Below, in pieces: positions 23,206-38,675 of a stretch of 64,000 bases of DNA. The notes beneath the pieces were generated by a model. It made no database searches, was not told where the DNA came from, and saw only the letters and a list, made by a program, of their open reading frames with translations. A program made the position numbers and the translations under genes. Source of the stretch: Bacteroidota bacterium (GTDB lineage Bacteria > Bacteroidota > JABWAT01); contig JABWAT010000006.1 of NCBI GenBank assembly GCA_013360915.1, positions 62,001 through 126,000 on the forward strand, written 5' to 3'. How positions within the stretch are numbered: the first letter of the stretch is position 1; each line of letters begins with the position of its first letter.

Positions 23206-24243
23206 ATGAAAATGATCAAAGTTGCCATCACCGGTTGTACCGGATACACAGGAAAAAAGCTGGTTTCTTACCTGGCGGCCCATCCGATGGTTTCGGGAAT
23301 GGATTTGTACAGCTTCACCTCGGCAGGTAAGCCGTTTGATGAATTGGTTCCGGAAATGAAAGGGGTGGTTTCGCCCGATCTGATGGTCAGCCACATTGAT
23401 TCTCTGACTGCCGAAGCCGATGTGTACTTTCTGGCCCTTCCGCATGGTGAGGCGGCAAAACTGGCACCCAAACTGGTTGAAGCGGGCAAAGTGGTGATCG
23501 ATCTGAGTGGTGATTTCCGTCTGGATGAAGCATCTGCCTATGACAGCTGGTATCATTTTACCCATCCATCCCCTGAATTGCTGGCCTCAAAATCGTATGC
23601 GCTTGCCGACTGGGAAGGCCCATCCGGGTCGGCCCTGATATCGAATCCGGGTTGTTATCCGACGGCAACTCTGCTTTCTGTATTGCCGATTGTAAAAGCA
23701 GCCGGAGCTTCGGTGATTTCCGTTGCCACATCGGCAGGATCCGGGACCAGCGGGGCAGGGAAATCGGCCAATCCCGATCTGTTGCTTTCAGAGATGGATG
23801 GAAATGTGAGGGCTTACAACGTTCATCAGCATCGTCATGAACCAGAAATTGCTCAGCAGATGAAAAAGGCTGGATATGACGGACTTTTTTCATTTACCGT
23901 TCATCTTCTTCCATTGGCGGTTGGCATGTATGCAACCACATCGGTTTTTATGAACCGTTCTTTTTCGAAACAGGAAGTGGATGGCTGGTTTCAGGAGGCT
24001 TACCAGAATAAACCCTTTATCCGGCTGCGGTCGGTTCCTCCTCAGATCAGTTGGGTGAACGGAACCAATTTCGCCGATATCCACGTGTCGGTCCGGAACC
24101 AATCCATTCTGATTTTCACGGCCATCGACAATCTGGTAAAAGGTGCCAGCGGACAGGCTGTACAAAACATGAATCTTCATTTTGGCTGGGAACCTTTTCT
24201 TGGCCTGCAATCAACAGGAAAACAACATGTATCAGTTTATTGA
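23206..24243 (+). CDS. argC: N-acetyl-gamma-glutamyl-phosphate reductase
   Basis: A 345-aa enzyme, third step of arginine synthesis: NADPH-dependent reduction of N-acetylglutamyl phosphate to the semialdehyde. The Rossmann start is VAITGCTGYTGKKLVSYL and the catalytic cysteine lies in SNPGCYPTA. The conserved HRHEPEI motif holds the base histidine. It is the first gene of the operon. ATG 23206 is chosen since it opens directly into the nucleotide-binding fold; the upstream ATG at 23170 adds an unrelated stretch. Confidence 0.95.
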   Translation: MKMIKVAITGCTGYTGKKLVSYLAAHPMVSGMDLYSFTSAGKPFDELVPEMKGVVSPDLMVSHIDSLTAEADVYFLALPHGEAAKLAPKLVEAGKVVIDLSGDFRLDEASAYDSWYHFTHPSPELLASKSYALADWEGPSGSALISNPGCYPTATLLSVLPIVKAAGASVISVATSAGSGTSGAGKSANPDLLLSEMDGNVRAYNVHQHRHEPEIAQQMKKAGYDGLFSFTVHLLPLAVGMYATTSVFMNRSFSKQEVDGWFQEAYQNKPFIRLRSVPPQISWVNGTNFADIHVSVRNQSILIFTAIDNLVKGASGQAVQNMNLHFGWEPFLGLQSTGKQHVSVY

Positions 24244-25432
24244 AAACGGAACCATCACCTCGGTCCCCGGAATCCAGGCTGCCGGTATTTTCTCCGGAAT
24301 CAAAAAGAAAAAAAAGGATCTGGCTCTGATTCTGTCCTTGTCACCGGCAACTGTGGCCGGCACATTTACATTGAACAAGGTCAAAGCAGCCCCGTTGCTG
24401 ATTTCACAATCGGTGGTCAGGGCAGGCGGTAAGATTAAGGCCATTCTGGTTAACAGCGGCAATGCCAATGCCTGTACCGGTGAACCCGGGATGCAGGATG
24501 CGCTGACCTGCCAGCAATGGGTGGCCGATGCGTTGGGAATTTCCACCAGAGAAGTGCTGATCAGCTCGACCGGGGTAATCGGTCAGCGCTTGCCGATGCC
24601 GGTCGTGGAAGCGGGAATCAAGGCCATTGTCCCTCAGGTCAATCCGGATGGCGGATTGGATGCAGCCGAAGCCATTCTGACCACCGACACGCGGATCAAA
24701 TCGTATGCAGTGGAAGTTCAGCTCAGCCATGGAACCGTGACCATCGGCGGTATTGCCAAGGGATCGGGAATGATCATGCCGAATATGGCAACCATGCTGG
24801 GATTTCTGGCCACCGATGCAGCCATTCCTTCACCGGTCCTGCAGGGTCTTCTGACCTATGCCGTGAGTCATTCTTTCAATAAGATCACGGTGGATGGCGA
24901 TACAAGCACCAATGACATGGTTACGCTCATGGCAAACGGGACTTCCGGAATGGCCATTCTGGAAGGAACCGAGGACTATCAAACCTTCCGTAACGCCCTT
25001 CATGCCATTTGTCTGGAAATGGCCAAGGCCATCATTGTGGATGGCGAAGGGGCCACCAAACTGGTGGAAGTTCAGGTTCATGGTGCTGCCACCGAGGCAG
25101 ATGCCGATAAAATTGCACGGGCCATTGCCAACTCACCGCTGGTCAAGACAGCCATTCACGGTGAAGATGCCAATTGGGGACGGATTATCTCTGCAGCCGG
25201 TTATTCCGGTGCCGATTTCGATCCGGCCGAGGTCTCTATTCATTTCGATGATCTGGCTGTTTTTCTGCCGGGTTATCAGATCGTACTCGACGAGGAGGAA
25301 GCATTGAAGCGACTCTCCAAATCAGAACTGCGCCTGACCATCCGTGTGGGCTCAGGACCCGGCTCTACAACCTGGTATACCTGCGATCTGTCTGCCGACT
25401 ACATCCGTATCAATGCGGATTACCGGAGTTAA
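24227..25432 (+). CDS. argJ: Bifunctional ornithine acetyltransferase / N-acetylglutamate synthase
   Basis: A 401-aa enzyme that moves the acetyl group from N-acetylornithine to glutamate, so the operon needs no argE. The self-cleavage site is MPNMATMLGF with the nucleophile Thr189, giving alpha and beta chains. A GEGATKLVEV motif and a C-terminal SADYIRINADYRS follow. It overlaps argC by 17 bp; AGGAAA precedes ATG 24227. The next arg gene follows only after a 490-bp inserted cassette. Confidence 0.95.
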   Translation: MYQFIENGTITSVPGIQAAGIFSGIKKKKKDLALILSLSPATVAGTFTLNKVKAAPLLISQSVVRAGGKIKAILVNSGNANACTGEPGMQDALTCQQWVADALGISTREVLISSTGVIGQRLPMPVVEAGIKAIVPQVNPDGGLDAAEAILTTDTRIKSYAVEVQLSHGTVTIGGIAKGSGMIMPNMATMLGFLATDAAIPSPVLQGLLTYAVSHSFNKITVDGDTSTNDMVTLMANGTSGMAILEGTEDYQTFRNALHAICLEMAKAIIVDGEGATKLVEVQVHGAATEADADKIARAIANSPLVKTAIHGEDANWGRIISAAGYSGADFDPAEVSIHFDDLAVFLPGYQIVLDEEEALKRLSKSELRLTIRVGSGPGSTTWYTCDLSADYIRINADYRS

Positions 25433-25439
25433 ATCATAA

Positions 25440-25923
25440 GGAAGAATTCAGAATTCAGAATCCAGAATTCAGAAGACCGCAGGCAGAATCAATAAATGAA
25501 GGCTAAATATAACAATTTTCAAGACCTTATCATGTGGCAAAAGGCCCATGAATTTGTTCTTGAAGTGTATAAGACAACTTCAAAATTTCCTCAATCTGAG
25601 CAGTATGGGTTGACGAGTCAATTTCGCCGTGCGGCCGTTTCTGTAGCAGCAAATATTGCAGAAGGTTATAAGCGGAAGACAAAAATTGATAAAGGGAGGT
25701 TCTATCTGCTTTCGCAGAGTTCGCTAGAAGAATGCAGGTATTACATCATTTTATCGAGGGATTTGGGATACCATGCTAATGAGAGTCTTCAGCCGATACT
25801 GGAAAATGTCAGTATGCTGATAGAATCCTATAACCACAAACTTTTAGAATCAGGCAACTGATCATGCATTCAACCGACGTTATTCAACATCTTCTGAATT
25901 CCGAATTCTGAATTCTGACTTCC
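25440..25923 (+). mobile_element. Inverted-repeat cassette carrying a four-helix-bundle gene, inside the arg operon
   Basis: The cassette starts 7 bp after the argJ stop and ends 7 bp before argB. The left arm (25440-25476) holds four 7-bp units (GAATTCA, GAATTCA, GAATCCA, GAATTCA) between GGAA and AGAAGA. The right arm (25890-25923) holds four units in inverted order (TGAATTC, CGAATTC, TGAATTC, TGACTTC). In RNA the arms would form a stem around the gene at 25496, as in 23S rRNA intervening sequences. Mobility is inferred; no target duplication is obvious. Confidence 0.65.
25496..25861 (+). CDS. Four helix bundle protein (23S rRNA intervening-sequence protein family)
   Basis: 121 aa, all-helical, of the family encoded in 23S rRNA intervening sequences and related to the Avd accessory protein of diversity-generating retroelements. 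Signature seen: FQDLIMWQKAHEFVLEVYK (first helix), then LTSQFRRAAVSVAANIAEGY and the third helix SQSSLEECRYYIILSRDLGY. Molecular function is unknown; basic surfaces suggest nucleic-acid binding in Avd. It is AT-richer than the arg genes around it and sits in an inverted-repeat cassette between argJ and argB, which indicates insertion. It has no link to arginine chemistry. Confidence 0.92.
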   Translation: MKAKYNNFQDLIMWQKAHEFVLEVYKTTSKFPQSEQYGLTSQFRRAAVSVAANIAEGYKRKTKIDKGRFYLLSQSSLEECRYYIILSRDLGYHANESLQPILENVSMLIESYNHKLLESGN

Positions 25924-25930
25924 TGAACTT

Positions 25931-26710
25931 ATGGTATTAATTAAACTTTCCGGAAAAACCATCGACGAGTTTATCAGCCAGCCGGCATGGGTCGATCATC
26001 TTCATTGGTTGAAATCGCAGGGTCATCCTGTCATTCTGGTGCATGGGGCAGGAACACTCATCACCGAATGGTCGAAGGCGCTGGGTCTTGAGTCGACTTT
26101 TATTAACGGTCTGAGGGTGACCGATGATGCCATGATGGATGTGGTGGCCGCCGTTCAGAGCGGATTGATCAACGGACGGCTGGTTGCAGCCCTGAATCAT
26201 GCCGGAATCAAGGCTGTCGGGCTCACCGGCGCCGACCATGGGCTGGCCAGCGCTGCTCCGATGGATGACCGGTTGGGACGGGTCGGCATTCCGGTCATTT
26301 CCGGTGACCTTGGCTGGCTGCGTCAACTGCTGACCGATGGCATCATCCCGGTTTTTTCATCCACCTGTCTGGGGACGGATGGCGGACTGATGAACATCAA
26401 TGCCGATGTGATGGCCGGAGAGTTGGGCAAAGCCCTGGGCACCAGCCGGATATTCTTTCTGTCGGATATTCCCGGTGTCATTATGAACGGAACGGTACAA
26501 CCGGTCATGAATGCAGATCTGATCGGGTCGGGCATTGAATCAGGACAAATTACCAACGGGATGATTCCAAAACTGACCAGCGCCCTTGATCTGGTGAACA
26601 ATGGCGTGGGTGCGGTCTGGATCGGTCCTGGCAAACCAGATGTATTTATTCAGGCAATTCAACAGGTTCCGGGTGCCGGTACCTGGATTATGGAAGGAGA
26701 ATTGAAGTGA
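25931..26710 (+). CDS. argB: Acetylglutamate kinase
   Basis: A 259-aa amino-acid kinase that phosphorylates N-acetylglutamate, step two of the pathway and often the arginine-inhibited one. Motifs: VLIKLSGKTID at the N-terminus, VILVHGAGTLI (glycine loop), and GTDGGLMNINADVMAGELGKALG with FFLSDIPGVI. It lacks the N-terminal helix of the hexameric arginine-sensitive enzymes, so it resembles the dimeric E. coli form, and control may rest on ArgR. It starts 7 bp after the inserted cassette. Confidence 0.95.
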   Translation: MVLIKLSGKTIDEFISQPAWVDHLHWLKSQGHPVILVHGAGTLITEWSKALGLESTFINGLRVTDDAMMDVVAAVQSGLINGRLVAALNHAGIKAVGLTGADHGLASAAPMDDRLGRVGIPVISGDLGWLRQLLTDGIIPVFSSTCLGTDGGLMNINADVMAGELGKALGTSRIFFLSDIPGVIMNGTVQPVMNADLIGSGIESGQITNGMIPKLTSALDLVNNGVGAVWIGPGKPDVFIQAIQQVPGAGTWIMEGELK

Positions 26711-28838: not shown

Positions 28839-29308
28839 TGTCGACAAAACTTCACAGGCAGAATAAAATCAAGGAAATTCTGCTGAAAAAGCGGATTGAC
28901 AGCCAGGAGGAACTGGTTCGTCAGTTAAAAAAAGAAGGAATCGAAGTCACTCAGGCCACTCTGAGCCGTGATTTTTCCGATCTGGGAATTATCAGGGTGC
29001 GGGATGATGAGGGGGCACATTATGTCATCAGTCAGAATGAGGCTGGTCACCAGGTGGCCCGGCTGATCCGGTATGAAATTATCAGTGTCACTCATAATGA
29101 AATGGTGATTGTGGTCCGGACTCTGGCTGGTCGTGCACAAGGGGTTGGTCATTTCTTTGATCGCCTGAATAAACCCGAGATCCTCGGAACCATTGCCGGT
29201 GACGATACCATCCTGATTATTCCCGATACGGTAAGAAATATCCCTGTTCTTGTCCATTTTCTGAGGGAAATGATGGAGGAAAGCGGGGACTTGACTCGTG
29301 ACGAGTGA
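28838..29308 (+). CDS. argR: Arginine repressor ArgR
   Basis: 156 aa, two-domain arginine-sensing repressor. The winged-helix part contains EGIEVTQATLSRDFSDLGII, and the C-terminal hexamerisation and arginine-binding part contains GTIAGDDTILIIPDT. Being inside the operon it regulates, it probably acts on the ARG boxes at 23027-23052. The last residues LTRDE and the stop are encoded by the left repeat of the next inserted cassette (ACTCGTGACGAGTGA), so the insertion seems to have replaced the original C-terminus. Confidence 0.95.
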   Translation: MSTKLHRQNKIKEILLKKRIDSQEELVRQLKKEGIEVTQATLSRDFSDLGIIRVRDDEGAHYVISQNEAGHQVARLIRYEIISVTHNEMVIVVRTLAGRAQGVGHFFDRLNKPEILGTIAGDDTILIIPDTVRNIPVLVHFLREMMEESGDLTRDE

Positions 29309-29806
29309 CGGGTGACGAGTGAAAGGAAAAGATTACGGCTTGAATGGCAATTTCTTGCAGGACTGTTAAAAACTGAAGGATAAAGTAATTTCATTTTTTA
29401 TGAAAACTCACAAAGATCTCGATGTTTGGAAACGATCAATTGAATTTGCAAAAACCATTTATTCTATCACAAGTCAATTCCCGGATGGCGAAAGATCTGG
29501 GCTGATTTCCTAAATGAGAAGTGCGGTAATATCCCTTCCATCAAACATTGCGGAAGGCGCCGCCAGGAACCACAATAAGGAGTTTAAACAGTTCTGCTAT
29601 ATTTCTTTGGGTTCACTTGCAGAATTGGAAACCCATCTGATTTTGGTAGATAAGTTAAATGTTGCGAAAATACCCGATAAGGTCCAGGAAGAATTAGGTG
29701 AAATACGCCGGATGTTGATTGGTCTGATTTCCTTTTTGGAAAAGACCAAATGATACTTGTCCAACATTTTGTTTATGTCAACCCATTCAGTAGCAATTAG
29801 TAAAGA
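29293..29806 (+). mobile_element. Second four-helix-bundle cassette, between argR and argG
   Basis: The left side (29294-29321) has iterated GTGACGAGTGAC-type units (ACTCGTGACGAGTGACGGGT and onward) and overlaps the argR stop. The right side has AGTTACTCGTTACTG (29807-29821), whose complement CAGTAACGAGTAACT mirrors the left units. Between them lies a disrupted four-helix-bundle gene. The repeat words differ from those of the first cassette, so the two are separate insertions rather than a local duplication. Confidence 0.55.
29400..29753 (+). pseudogene. Four-helix-bundle (IVS-type) protein gene with one nonsense codon
   Basis: The frame from ATG 29400 reads MKTHKDLDVWKRSIEFAKTI, up to GLIS, then TAA at 29511-29513, then immediately ATG with MRSAVISLPSNIAEGAARNH to the stop at 29753. 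The intact family has a Gln at the stop position (GLxSQxRRA), so a single CAA-to-TAA change explains it. Translation could restart at the following ATG and make an 79-aa C-terminal fragment, but without the first helix. Sequence differs much from the intact copy at 25496. Confidence 0.85.
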
Positions 29807-29870
29807 GTTACTCGTTACTGAATACATTTCACAATCCATTTTAACATAGAAACATCAGGAGTCTCTTTAT

Positions 29871-36806: not shown

Positions 36807-37571
36807 ATGCTGACCCGTCGAATCATTCCCTGCCTTGATGTCCATGACGGCCGGGTGGTTAAAGGCATTCAGTTTGTGAATCTGGTCGATGCCGGAGACC
36901 CGGTTGAACAAGCCCGTGTTTACAATGCGGCGGGTGCCGATGAATTGGTTTTCCTCGATATCACCGCAACCAGCGACAATCGCCGAAGCATGTATTCGGT
37001 GATTGAAAAAACGGCTGCCGAGGTTTTTATACCGCTGACAGTGGGAGGCGGAATCCGCACGGTGGATGATATGAAAGCCATGCTGGATTCCGGCGCCGAT
37101 AAGGTCTCGGTCAATTCTTCAGCCATTGCCACCCCGGACCTGATTTCGGCAGGCGCTGAACGGTTCGGATCACAATGTGTGGTTCTCGCAATTGATGCCA
37201 GACGAACGGGTTCAGATTCCTGGGAAGTATACACACATGGCGGCCGGAAAGCCACTGGGCTGGATGCCGTTCAATGGGCGCTGGATGGTGTCAGACGGGG
37301 TGCCGGAGAGCTTTTAATCACTTCGATGGACCGCGATGGCAGTAAGTCGGGGTATGACAACGAACTGCTTGCCCGTATTTCCTCCCAGGTTCAGGTCCCG
37401 GTTATTGCCTCGGGCGGGGCAGGAAAACCCGACCATTTTTATGATGCATTTACCATTGGAAAAGCCGATGCTGCTTTGGCTGCCTCCTTGTTTCACTTCA
37501 GGGAACTGGAAATAGCCGATCTGAAAAACTGGTTGCACGACCGGGGCATCCCGGTAAGGAGGGTCGGTTGA
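36807..37571 (+). CDS. hisF: Imidazole glycerol phosphate synthase, cyclase subunit
   Basis: A 254-aa barrel partner of HisH making imidazole glycerol phosphate and AICAR. It starts [20 protein letters not shown] with catalytic Asp11 and has [21 protein letters not shown] with the second Asp near residue 130. Phosphate loops [10 protein letters not shown] and [10 protein letters not shown] are conserved. Its TGA overlaps the hisI TTG start. Confidence 0.96.
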
Positions 37572-37906
37572 ACTGGTCAGACTTTAAAAGAACTCCCGAT
37601 GGATTAATGCCGGTCATTGTGCAGGATTTTTCCACAAAGCAGGTTCTCATGATGGCCTGGATGAATGAATCAGCCTGGCAAAAGACGGTTTCAACCAGGG
37701 AAATGTGGTTCTGGTCCCGGTCACGTCAGGAGCTCTGGCACAAGGGAGCCACTTCGGGACATGTACAGAAGGTTATCAGGATATCGGTGGATTGTGACTC
37801 GGATGTCCTGCTGGCCGAAGTGGATCCTGCCGGAGGTATTGCCTGCCATACCGGCGCTGTCAGTTGTTTCTTTACAGAAGTATTAAATGCAGGAGACAGG
37901 GGATAG
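37568..37906 (+). CDS. hisI: Phosphoribosyl-AMP cyclohydrolase
   Basis: A 112-aa zinc enzyme opening the purine ring of PR-AMP; only the HisI domain is present, without a fused HisE. Motifs: [42 protein letters not shown] and [11 protein letters not shown] with metal-binding residues. A TTG start overlaps hisF (TTGA) behind AAGGAGGG. The last residues AGDRG and the stop are written by a repeat (GGAGACAGGGGATAGGAGAC), so the element downstream reaches into the gene. Confidence 0.93.
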
Positions 37907-38231
37907 GAGACAGGAGTCAGGAGTCAGAATACGGAATTCAGAATTCAGAATTCAGAATTCAGAATTCAGAATTCAGAATTCAGAATACGGAATCTCACTC
38001 TCTTTGCCGGAGAGGGAAGGGGTAAGGGTCAATTGAATTTCAGCCGGAAAATCCCTTGTCCCTTCGATCAACTCGGGGTTCTGGTTTTTCCATCACCACT
38101 CAATAATTTTTTCTTGTCACTCGTCCCTGGAAAAACACCAACCCTTCCCCGACTTCATCGGGGTAAACTTTCACCTCAGGGTCCGGTTTTTTCCCATTAC
38201 CAATCACCCATCACCAATCACCAGAATTTTG
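37891..38231. repeat. Repeat-flanked element after hisI, without an intact gene
   Basis: The left part holds GGAGACAGG units (37892-37915) and then seven exact tandem copies of the 7-bp unit GAATTCA (37934-37982). The right part ends with ATTACCAATCACCCATCACC and a further CAATCACC (38200-38222). Inside lie CTTGTCACTCGTCC and CCCCGACTTCATCGGGG. The GAATTCA unit is the same as in the argJ-argB cassette. No four-helix-bundle frame remains. It fills the space between hisI and panD. Confidence 0.75.
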
Positions 38232-38235
38232 CAGA

Positions 38236-38625
38236 CTACCGGTCGAACGGCGAGTCAGGCAGCTCCATTCTTTCCAGCTCTTCGATGTAACGGACAAACC
38301 GGTTATGGCTGTCGACGAGGATGTTTTTTGGAGTCTGGGGTTGATCGGTCAGAGAAAAACCCATGATGATGAGTTCTTCGCCCCGTTTGATAAGGTGAGC
38401 GGCTGCACCATTCATGTGAATGGCGCCCGATCCCCGTTCACCCTTAATCACATAGGTTTCGAGGCGGGAACCCGAGGTGTTGCTGACGACCAGAACGCGC
38501 TCACCAGGCCACAAACCGGCTTTTTCGATCAGATCTTCATCGATGGTAATGCTGCCAACGTAAGCCAGATTGGCTTCGGTTACCACTGCTTTCTGGATTT
38601 TTGAGGTCAGGACCCAACGCAACAT
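38236..38625 (-). CDS. panD: Aspartate 1-decarboxylase
   Basis: A 129-aa pyruvoyl enzyme making beta-alanine for pantothenate. The self-cleavage site is YVGSITID. With ATG 38625 as start the cleaved pair is Gly24-Ser25, exactly as in the E. coli enzyme, which decides against the ATG two codons upstream. IHMNGAAAHLIKRGEELIIM is the conserved C-terminal region. panC lies about 20 kb away in the same window, so the pathway is dispersed. Confidence 0.95.
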   Translation of the reverse strand: MLRWVLTSKIQKAVVTEANLAYVGSITIDEDLIEKAGLWPGERVLVVSNTSGSRLETYVIKGERGSGAIHMNGAAAHLIKRGEELIIMGFSLTDQPQTPKNILVDSHNRFVRYIEELERMELPDSPFDR

Positions 38626-38675
38626 AGTCATATCATAAAAGTGGAAAAAAGATTCAGAAAATAAAAATCGGTTGG

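Follow-up and report, generated by a model that had tools for sequence, protein, structure and literature searches.

We analysed a 64,000-nucleotide stretch of the genome of a Bacteroidota bacterium (assembly GCA_013360915.1, contig JABWAT010000006.1, positions 62,001 to 126,000 of the forward strand), hereafter the window, whose coordinates are used throughout; the genome it comes from, the source genome, is labelled G000. The subject of the analysis is a small gene for a four-helix-bundle (4HB) protein that lies, enclosed by inverted tandem repeats, between argJ and argB. The stop codon of argJ (24227..25432, forward strand; PF01960, 503.6 bits) marks the left edge of this cassette, which fills the gap between the end of argJ at 25432 and the start of argB at 25931 (25931..26710, forward strand; PF00696, 116.1 bits). 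On the same strand follow a left arm (25443..25476), which is a tandem array of AGAATTC with complementarity reaching outward to about 25429, the 4HB gene itself (25496..25861), coding for 121 amino acids, and a right arm (25890..25924), which is a TTCTGAA array, the reverse complement of the left arm, and ends 6 nt short of argB.

An earlier note on this DNA had assigned the gene to the family of the 23S rRNA intervening-sequence proteins (IVPs), had described inverted heptamer arrays on its flanks and had placed the whole cassette in a protein-coding operon, in the gap between the two arg genes; all three statements were borne out. The open reading frame (ORF) 25496-25861 scores 116.7 bits against PF05635 (cut-off 33.8; E 7e-34) and 104.6 bits against the NCBIfam model TIGR02436 (cut-off 24), and a solved relative of its product is XCC0516 (2gsc, E 1.6e-17). 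The tandem arrays extend over 25443-25474 (4.6 units of AGAATTC) and 25892-25927 (5.0 units of TTCTGAA) in inverted order, and the arms are complementary at 91% over 33 nt (25444-25476 versus 25890-25922). Strict runs of period 7 occur five times in the window and those of periods 5, 6 and 8-11 not at all; the doubled heptamer GAATTCWGAATTCW, with 2 mismatches allowed, has 34 matches in the window, compared to 2.8 expected and a maximum of 8 in 100 shuffles. In the predicted RNA fold of 25427-25936 (z = -5.9), the arms close a loop and the AUG of argB is paired at the base of the stem.

Matched arms across the family

For comparison, 4HB loci were collected from the same phylum, together with 80 named loci across bacteria, one archaeal metagenome-assembled genome among them; the named loci were chosen by closeness to the query alignment and are an uneven sample of the family. 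Matched inverted arms were present at 117 of 183 loci, in many phyla. For the first 122 usable loci, the inverted-repeat match score averaged 19.5 between flanks of the same locus and 11.1 between flanks of different loci, and 77 loci ranked in the top 5% of cross-locus flank pairings where about 6 were expected; these ranks count related loci as independent, and the cross-phylum named set gives the same picture. Among these 122 loci, the upstream flank had an array of period 7 in 47 cases and the downstream flank in 31, arrays of period 8 being present in 14 and 9, while each of the remaining periods, except period 14, accounted for 6 or fewer flanks. Control regions 0.9-1.2 kb off the 4HB loci contained arrays in 8 of 231 cases. 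The arm units of the Bacteroidales cassettes (L086 and L099-L119) are 8-10 nt long with an AAGTTA core and are not heptamers.

The cassettes lie between a stop codon and the start codon that follows it. From the upstream stop codon to the start of the left arm, the median distance is -2 nt (n=90, quartiles -8 and +7); the right arm stops short of the next ATG by a median of 11 nt (n=85, quartiles 0 and 22). With the neighbour context taken from simple ORF calls, which leave a few orientations uncertain, both neighbours read in the direction of the 4HB gene at 53 loci (>[>]>), only the upstream one at 11 (>[>]<), only the downstream one at 7 (<[>]>) and neither at any (<[>]<, 0). Of 75 left arms with a G/C skew, 71 favour G.

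The arms are part of the cassette and move with the gene, and their similarity tracks the 4HB protein, not the insertion site: arms were shared by 48% of the pairs at different sites with 65-80% protein identity, and by none of 13 pairs at the same site with less than 65% protein identity. The argJ-argB junction is itself a case in point. A 4HB gene is present there in each of the four family genomes (the source genome and three relatives, G001-G003), each time with a different matched word, the four words being GAATTCA, GAAGATA, GTAGTAG and GGAGTCA. In the 4HB tree, inferred from few columns and weak at many of its forks, the four genes occupy three places and form a single clade in 0% of the bootstrap trees. 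Because of the four arm words and the three tree positions, the arg site has probably been refilled more than once. The earlier note had held that a gene kept at this position by all relatives, with diverged flanks, would speak for vertical inheritance: all three family relatives are indeed filled, but the matched arms differ between them and the four genes do not group together as a clade, so that simple vertical descent does not fit. The empty junctions that the same note had suggested looking for were not found among these three relatives, but exist in more distant genomes (L011-L014 and L017-L020), where argJ and argB have no 4HB gene between them. At the argJ-argB junction of G001 (L010/L039), the 3' end of the 4HB gene and the right arm are present in three tandem copies.

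The mobility that had been proposed for the cassette holds for the class, since among close relatives with flanks about 91% identical some sites are empty, one keeps the remnant of a deletion, and at others the whole cassette has been swapped. In the genus g20, about 20 junctions are common to genomes whose flanks are about 88-95% identical. At five of them, at least one genome carries a different cassette (38-65% protein identity) and the others near-identical ones; flank identity at these swapped sites extends to the arms on both sides, and at L236 and L221 the old right arm was left outside the replacement cassette. Three further g20 junctions (A, B and C) were searched by their flanks. Site A holds a left-type array alone in G037 and G053 and is empty in G068; no cassette is present at site B in G025, G099 or G068; and at site C, G099 and G068 have an empty junction and G037 retains an internally deleted 4HB remnant. 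Fixed intergenic junctions thus gain, lose and exchange entire cassettes. At L220 and L223 (site C), the right arm lies within the downstream coding sequence (CDS), whose N-terminus is longer than at the empty site.

The CDS of L179 and L202 are 93.8% identical at the nucleotide level with flanks of only 73-79% identity, which indicates horizontal transfer into the same site. L217 and L195 were considered as further transfers (protein 91-95%, flanks 75-79%) and rejected, because the dS values of 1.7 and 0.97 show that purifying selection accounts for the contrast, so that L179 alone stands. Near-identical 4HB copies at different sites were not found in g20, where cross-site identity peaks at about 75%. 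The protein is under strong purifying selection (median dN/dS 0.06 among pairs with measurable dS). In g20, 18 of the 65 4HB genes, found at a number of unrelated sites (e.g. L196, L185, L221, L229 and L226), are preceded by a leader motif, TGTAAGGAAT..GTCTTACT, an imperfect palindrome resembling promoters of the extracytoplasmic function (ECF) type; it has 1 match in 400 kb of G064 and is perhaps a dedicated promoter.

Other cassettes and solo arrays

A second cassette (29297-29819) lies a few genes downstream of the first, at the argR-argG junction. Its left arm (29297..29322, forward strand), a GTGACGA array, overlaps the argR stop codon, its 4HB gene (29400..29753, forward strand; PF05635, 107.3 bits) is broken by an in-frame TAA at 29511-29513, and its weak right arm (GAGTTACTCGTTACT; 29805..29819, forward strand) is an inverted remnant recognised from the sequence. 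The 4HB gene is absent from this junction in G001-G003, where array-like stretches persist. Altogether, five loci of the source genome pass the cut-off of the 4HB family, and four of these adjoin heptamer arrays of different words (ACTGGCT, AAAGTTA, AGAATTC and GTGACGA). The fifth, L005 on contig C2, has no array and precedes a miaA-like gene; together with L042, L050 and L051 it forms a clade of longer, armless 4HB genes across all four family genomes, which have perhaps been domesticated.

Arrays also occur without a 4HB gene. One such solo array (37902..37993, forward strand) follows the ORF 37568-37906 (forward strand) and is a mosaic running from CAGGAGT to CAGAATT units, with CAGAATA units in between; this order of blocks recurs widely in the source genome, as if copied. 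Another, of ACCAATC units (38199..38224, no strand assigned), lies past the 3' end of the convergent ORF 38236-38631 (reverse strand). Arrays were scanned for in samples of about 400 kb of G000, G003 and G064, in the window and in some short stretches. The sequence GAATTCNGAATTCNGAAT has 53 forward and 54 reverse matches at dozens of places in the source genome, and none in 19 compared genomes, the three of the same family included; among these genomes, the source genome is the only known holder of a GAATTCA-armed cassette. In G003, the 38 solo arrays found in 400 kb are closer to the arms of its own cassettes than to those of any of 500 random cassette sets, and they match the cassette arms of the sister genome G002 at least as well, or even better. 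The match in G000 is weaker, random sets reaching the observed value 26 times out of 500. Many solo arrays start directly downstream of a stop codon; where the distance is about 40 nt or less, G-richness favours the sense strand of that gene by 15 to 4 in a hand count. G064, with 11 cassettes, has only 2 period-7 arrays in 400 kb; solo arrays are therefore not a necessary consequence of cassettes.

The earlier note would have given up its reading if such repeats surrounded unrelated genes equally often. The repeats do occur elsewhere, but matched inverted pairs that enclose a gene were found solely at 4HB genes in the genome samples, which also contain a single gene-less inverted pair (L307).

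Explanations for the cassette

We favour the explanation, with a probability of roughly 0.6, that the argJ-argB element is a mobile operon cassette similar to an intervening sequence (IVS) of 23S rRNA, consisting of left arm, 4HB gene and right arm and inserted in the sense direction. In the polycistronic mRNA, the arms would pair as a long stem from which the 4HB reading frame is looped out. Such looping would set the argB start codon beside the argJ stop codon, so that the insertion could be tolerated and translational coupling kept, as with an IVS in 23S rRNA. By analogy, RNase III may cut the arm stem, and the 4HB protein itself might promote the spread of the cassette through an action on its arms or the looped RNA; this last step is the weakest. 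The cassette is probably looped out of the mRNA according to the folding models, as the arms were paired in the minimum free energy folds of all ten loci tested, at L039 partly. Help in trans was considered from two sources and rejected. As regards a reverse transcriptase, G025, G034 and G037 hold 13-16 copies without a match to PF00078, and a Y1 transposase is missing from the source genome (no match to PF01797 in G000), and Y1 loci have no such arrays; both enzymes appear dispensable.

Several observations weigh against this explanation. About a third of the 4HB loci, L005 among them, lack matched arms, and many repeat arrays sit away from 4HB genes. The placement next to stop and start codons may result in part from the survival only of those insertions that fell into short operon gaps. 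Moreover, isolated mismatches in the arms of the 183-locus set are G.U in 54 and A.C in 55 cases. Without an excess of G.U, selection for RNA pairing is unsupported, so that of the stem around the gene, as the earlier note had envisaged it, the prediction stands and the selection was not seen. Copying or slippage of the DNA, rather than selection acting on single RNA pairs, looks to be what maintains arm complementarity. The result is compatible with a useful RNA stem, of which sequence is no proof.

Some of the same observations bear on a system acting on DNA in the manner of repetitive extragenic palindromes (REPs) and their associated tyrosine transposases (RAYTs), which we regard as possible but doubtful. 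Here, the 4HB protein and host factors would propagate a cognate word, arrays would thereby reach the 3' ends of genes throughout the genome, the inverted pair would mark the source, and RNA looping would be incidental. The abundance of GAATTCNGAATTCNGAAT in the one genome with a resident GAATTCA-armed cassette, the fit of the G003 solo arrays to their own arms (and less so that of G000), the recurrent mosaic order, the G-rich sense of the arrays near stop codons and the missing G.U excess all agree with it. The scarcity of arrays in G064 does not, and the equal or better fit of the G003 arrays to the G002 cassettes could mean that a genus-wide vocabulary came first. In addition, we know of no catalytic residues in the four-helix-bundle fold.

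It is unlikely that the 4HB gene is ordinary cargo or a regulatory gene swapped by homologous recombination between flanks, with arms that are slippage-prone spacers. Strong purifying selection, swaps at homologous sites and one-sided growth of arrays (e.g. at L195 and L046) would be accounted for in this way, but flank identity stays high up to both arms at the five swapped sites compared, left and right words match each other and track the gene lineage across sites, and Y1 transposase loci of the same phylum lack such arrays. Still less probable, and already disfavoured, is a classical DNA transposon that has terminal inverted repeats and is mobilised either by the 4HB protein or, in trans, by a transposase: the inverted ends and the presence/absence polymorphism would suit it, but the ends differ in every cassette, g20 lacks near-identical copies across sites, the source genome has no Y1 transposase and several genomes with 7-16 copies have no detectable reverse transcriptase. 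Nor was a constant target-site duplication evident at the aligned junctions; these, however, have arms that run into the stop and start codons, and none of them is a recent clean insertion. The reading of the gene as an old, vertically inherited member of the operon, flanked by microsatellites through chance, is likewise already disfavoured and hardly credible in spite of the occupancy of argJ-argB in 4 of 4 family genomes, given the scattered tree positions and four words at that site and the 117 of 183 loci with matched words on both sides, far beyond chance.

Comparison with known systems

IVSs of 23S rRNA that encode S23p/IVP proteins are known from Leptospira, Coxiella, Xanthomonas and Brucella. 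The Coxiella IVS, which is excised by RNase III in vitro, has inverted ends that form a stem of about 28 bp and GACAGAT heptamers upstream of S23p (PMC4990558), and mobility of IVSs was proposed earlier by Ralph and McClelland, as cited in that paper. The cassettes described here share with IVSs the protein family, the sense orientation, the length of about 430-490 nt and the inverted ends, which at argJ-argB, with 33-nt arms, close a predicted stem. Unlike IVSs, they sit between protein-coding genes, as the window element does at argJ-argB; their arms are tandem arrays with a word particular to each cassette lineage, and they swap at the same junction. Since no rRNA was found near 60 named 4HB loci scanned (one tRNA was) nor near ten further loci, the named cassettes are not themselves 23S IVSs. 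A gmk-4HB-nadD arrangement in Flavobacterium columnare has been published within a predicted phage region (PMC5524665).

A distant similarity connects the 4HB protein of the window to Avd of diversity-generating retroelements (NF033474, E 8.8e-6; bAvd, E 3.8e-5), but it scores far below both curated cut-offs (26 versus 80 bits for NF033474). The window has no reverse transcriptase match, the sole match to PF00078 in G000 lying on another contig (C15), and many multi-copy 4HB genomes are without a detectable reverse transcriptase; the locus is thus not a diversity-generating retroelement as defined by the Avd score and an adjacent reverse transcriptase. As in REP/RAYT systems, a gene lies inside an inverted pair of short repeats which is also dispersed in solo form. 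In contrast to these systems, the cassettes have no HUH/Y1 transposase and their repeats consist of tandem heptamers instead of palindromes; REP-like pairs and essentially no period-7 arrays were seen at 30 Y1 loci.

Dispersed heptamers have been described for Beggiatoaceae and cyanobacteria (TAACTGA; PMC4679880) and for Xanthomonas (GGGAATC) and Calothrix (PMC4692102). According to the searched text of these two papers, such repeats resemble the present ones in forming intergenic arrays of genome-specific words, some of them in convergent inverted pairs, and 4HB genes are not mentioned in that text; the present word differs in being tied to a resident cassette. In the open-access literature, we did not find IVSs, heptamer arrays and 4HB cassettes linked to each other.

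Against this background, the mobile cassette looks general, with the known 23S rRNA IVSs as one special form of it. Tentatively, and with less confidence than in the cassette itself, we suggest that IVP proteins and cassette-specific heptamer arrays are a two-part selfish system comparable to REP/RAYT without a known catalytic domain. It is equally tentative that the protein maintains and spreads its own word, both in the inverted arms on either side of its gene and in solo arrays that follow stop codons, and that the 23S IVSs and the unexplained heptamers are its products. If true, two decades-old puzzles, the 23S IVSs with their conserved protein and the scattered heptamers of bacterial genomes, would become one testable system. 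It would also define a class of mobile cassettes that reside between operon genes and may evade translation by folding out of the message, for which empty, filled and swapped natural alleles are available for direct tests.
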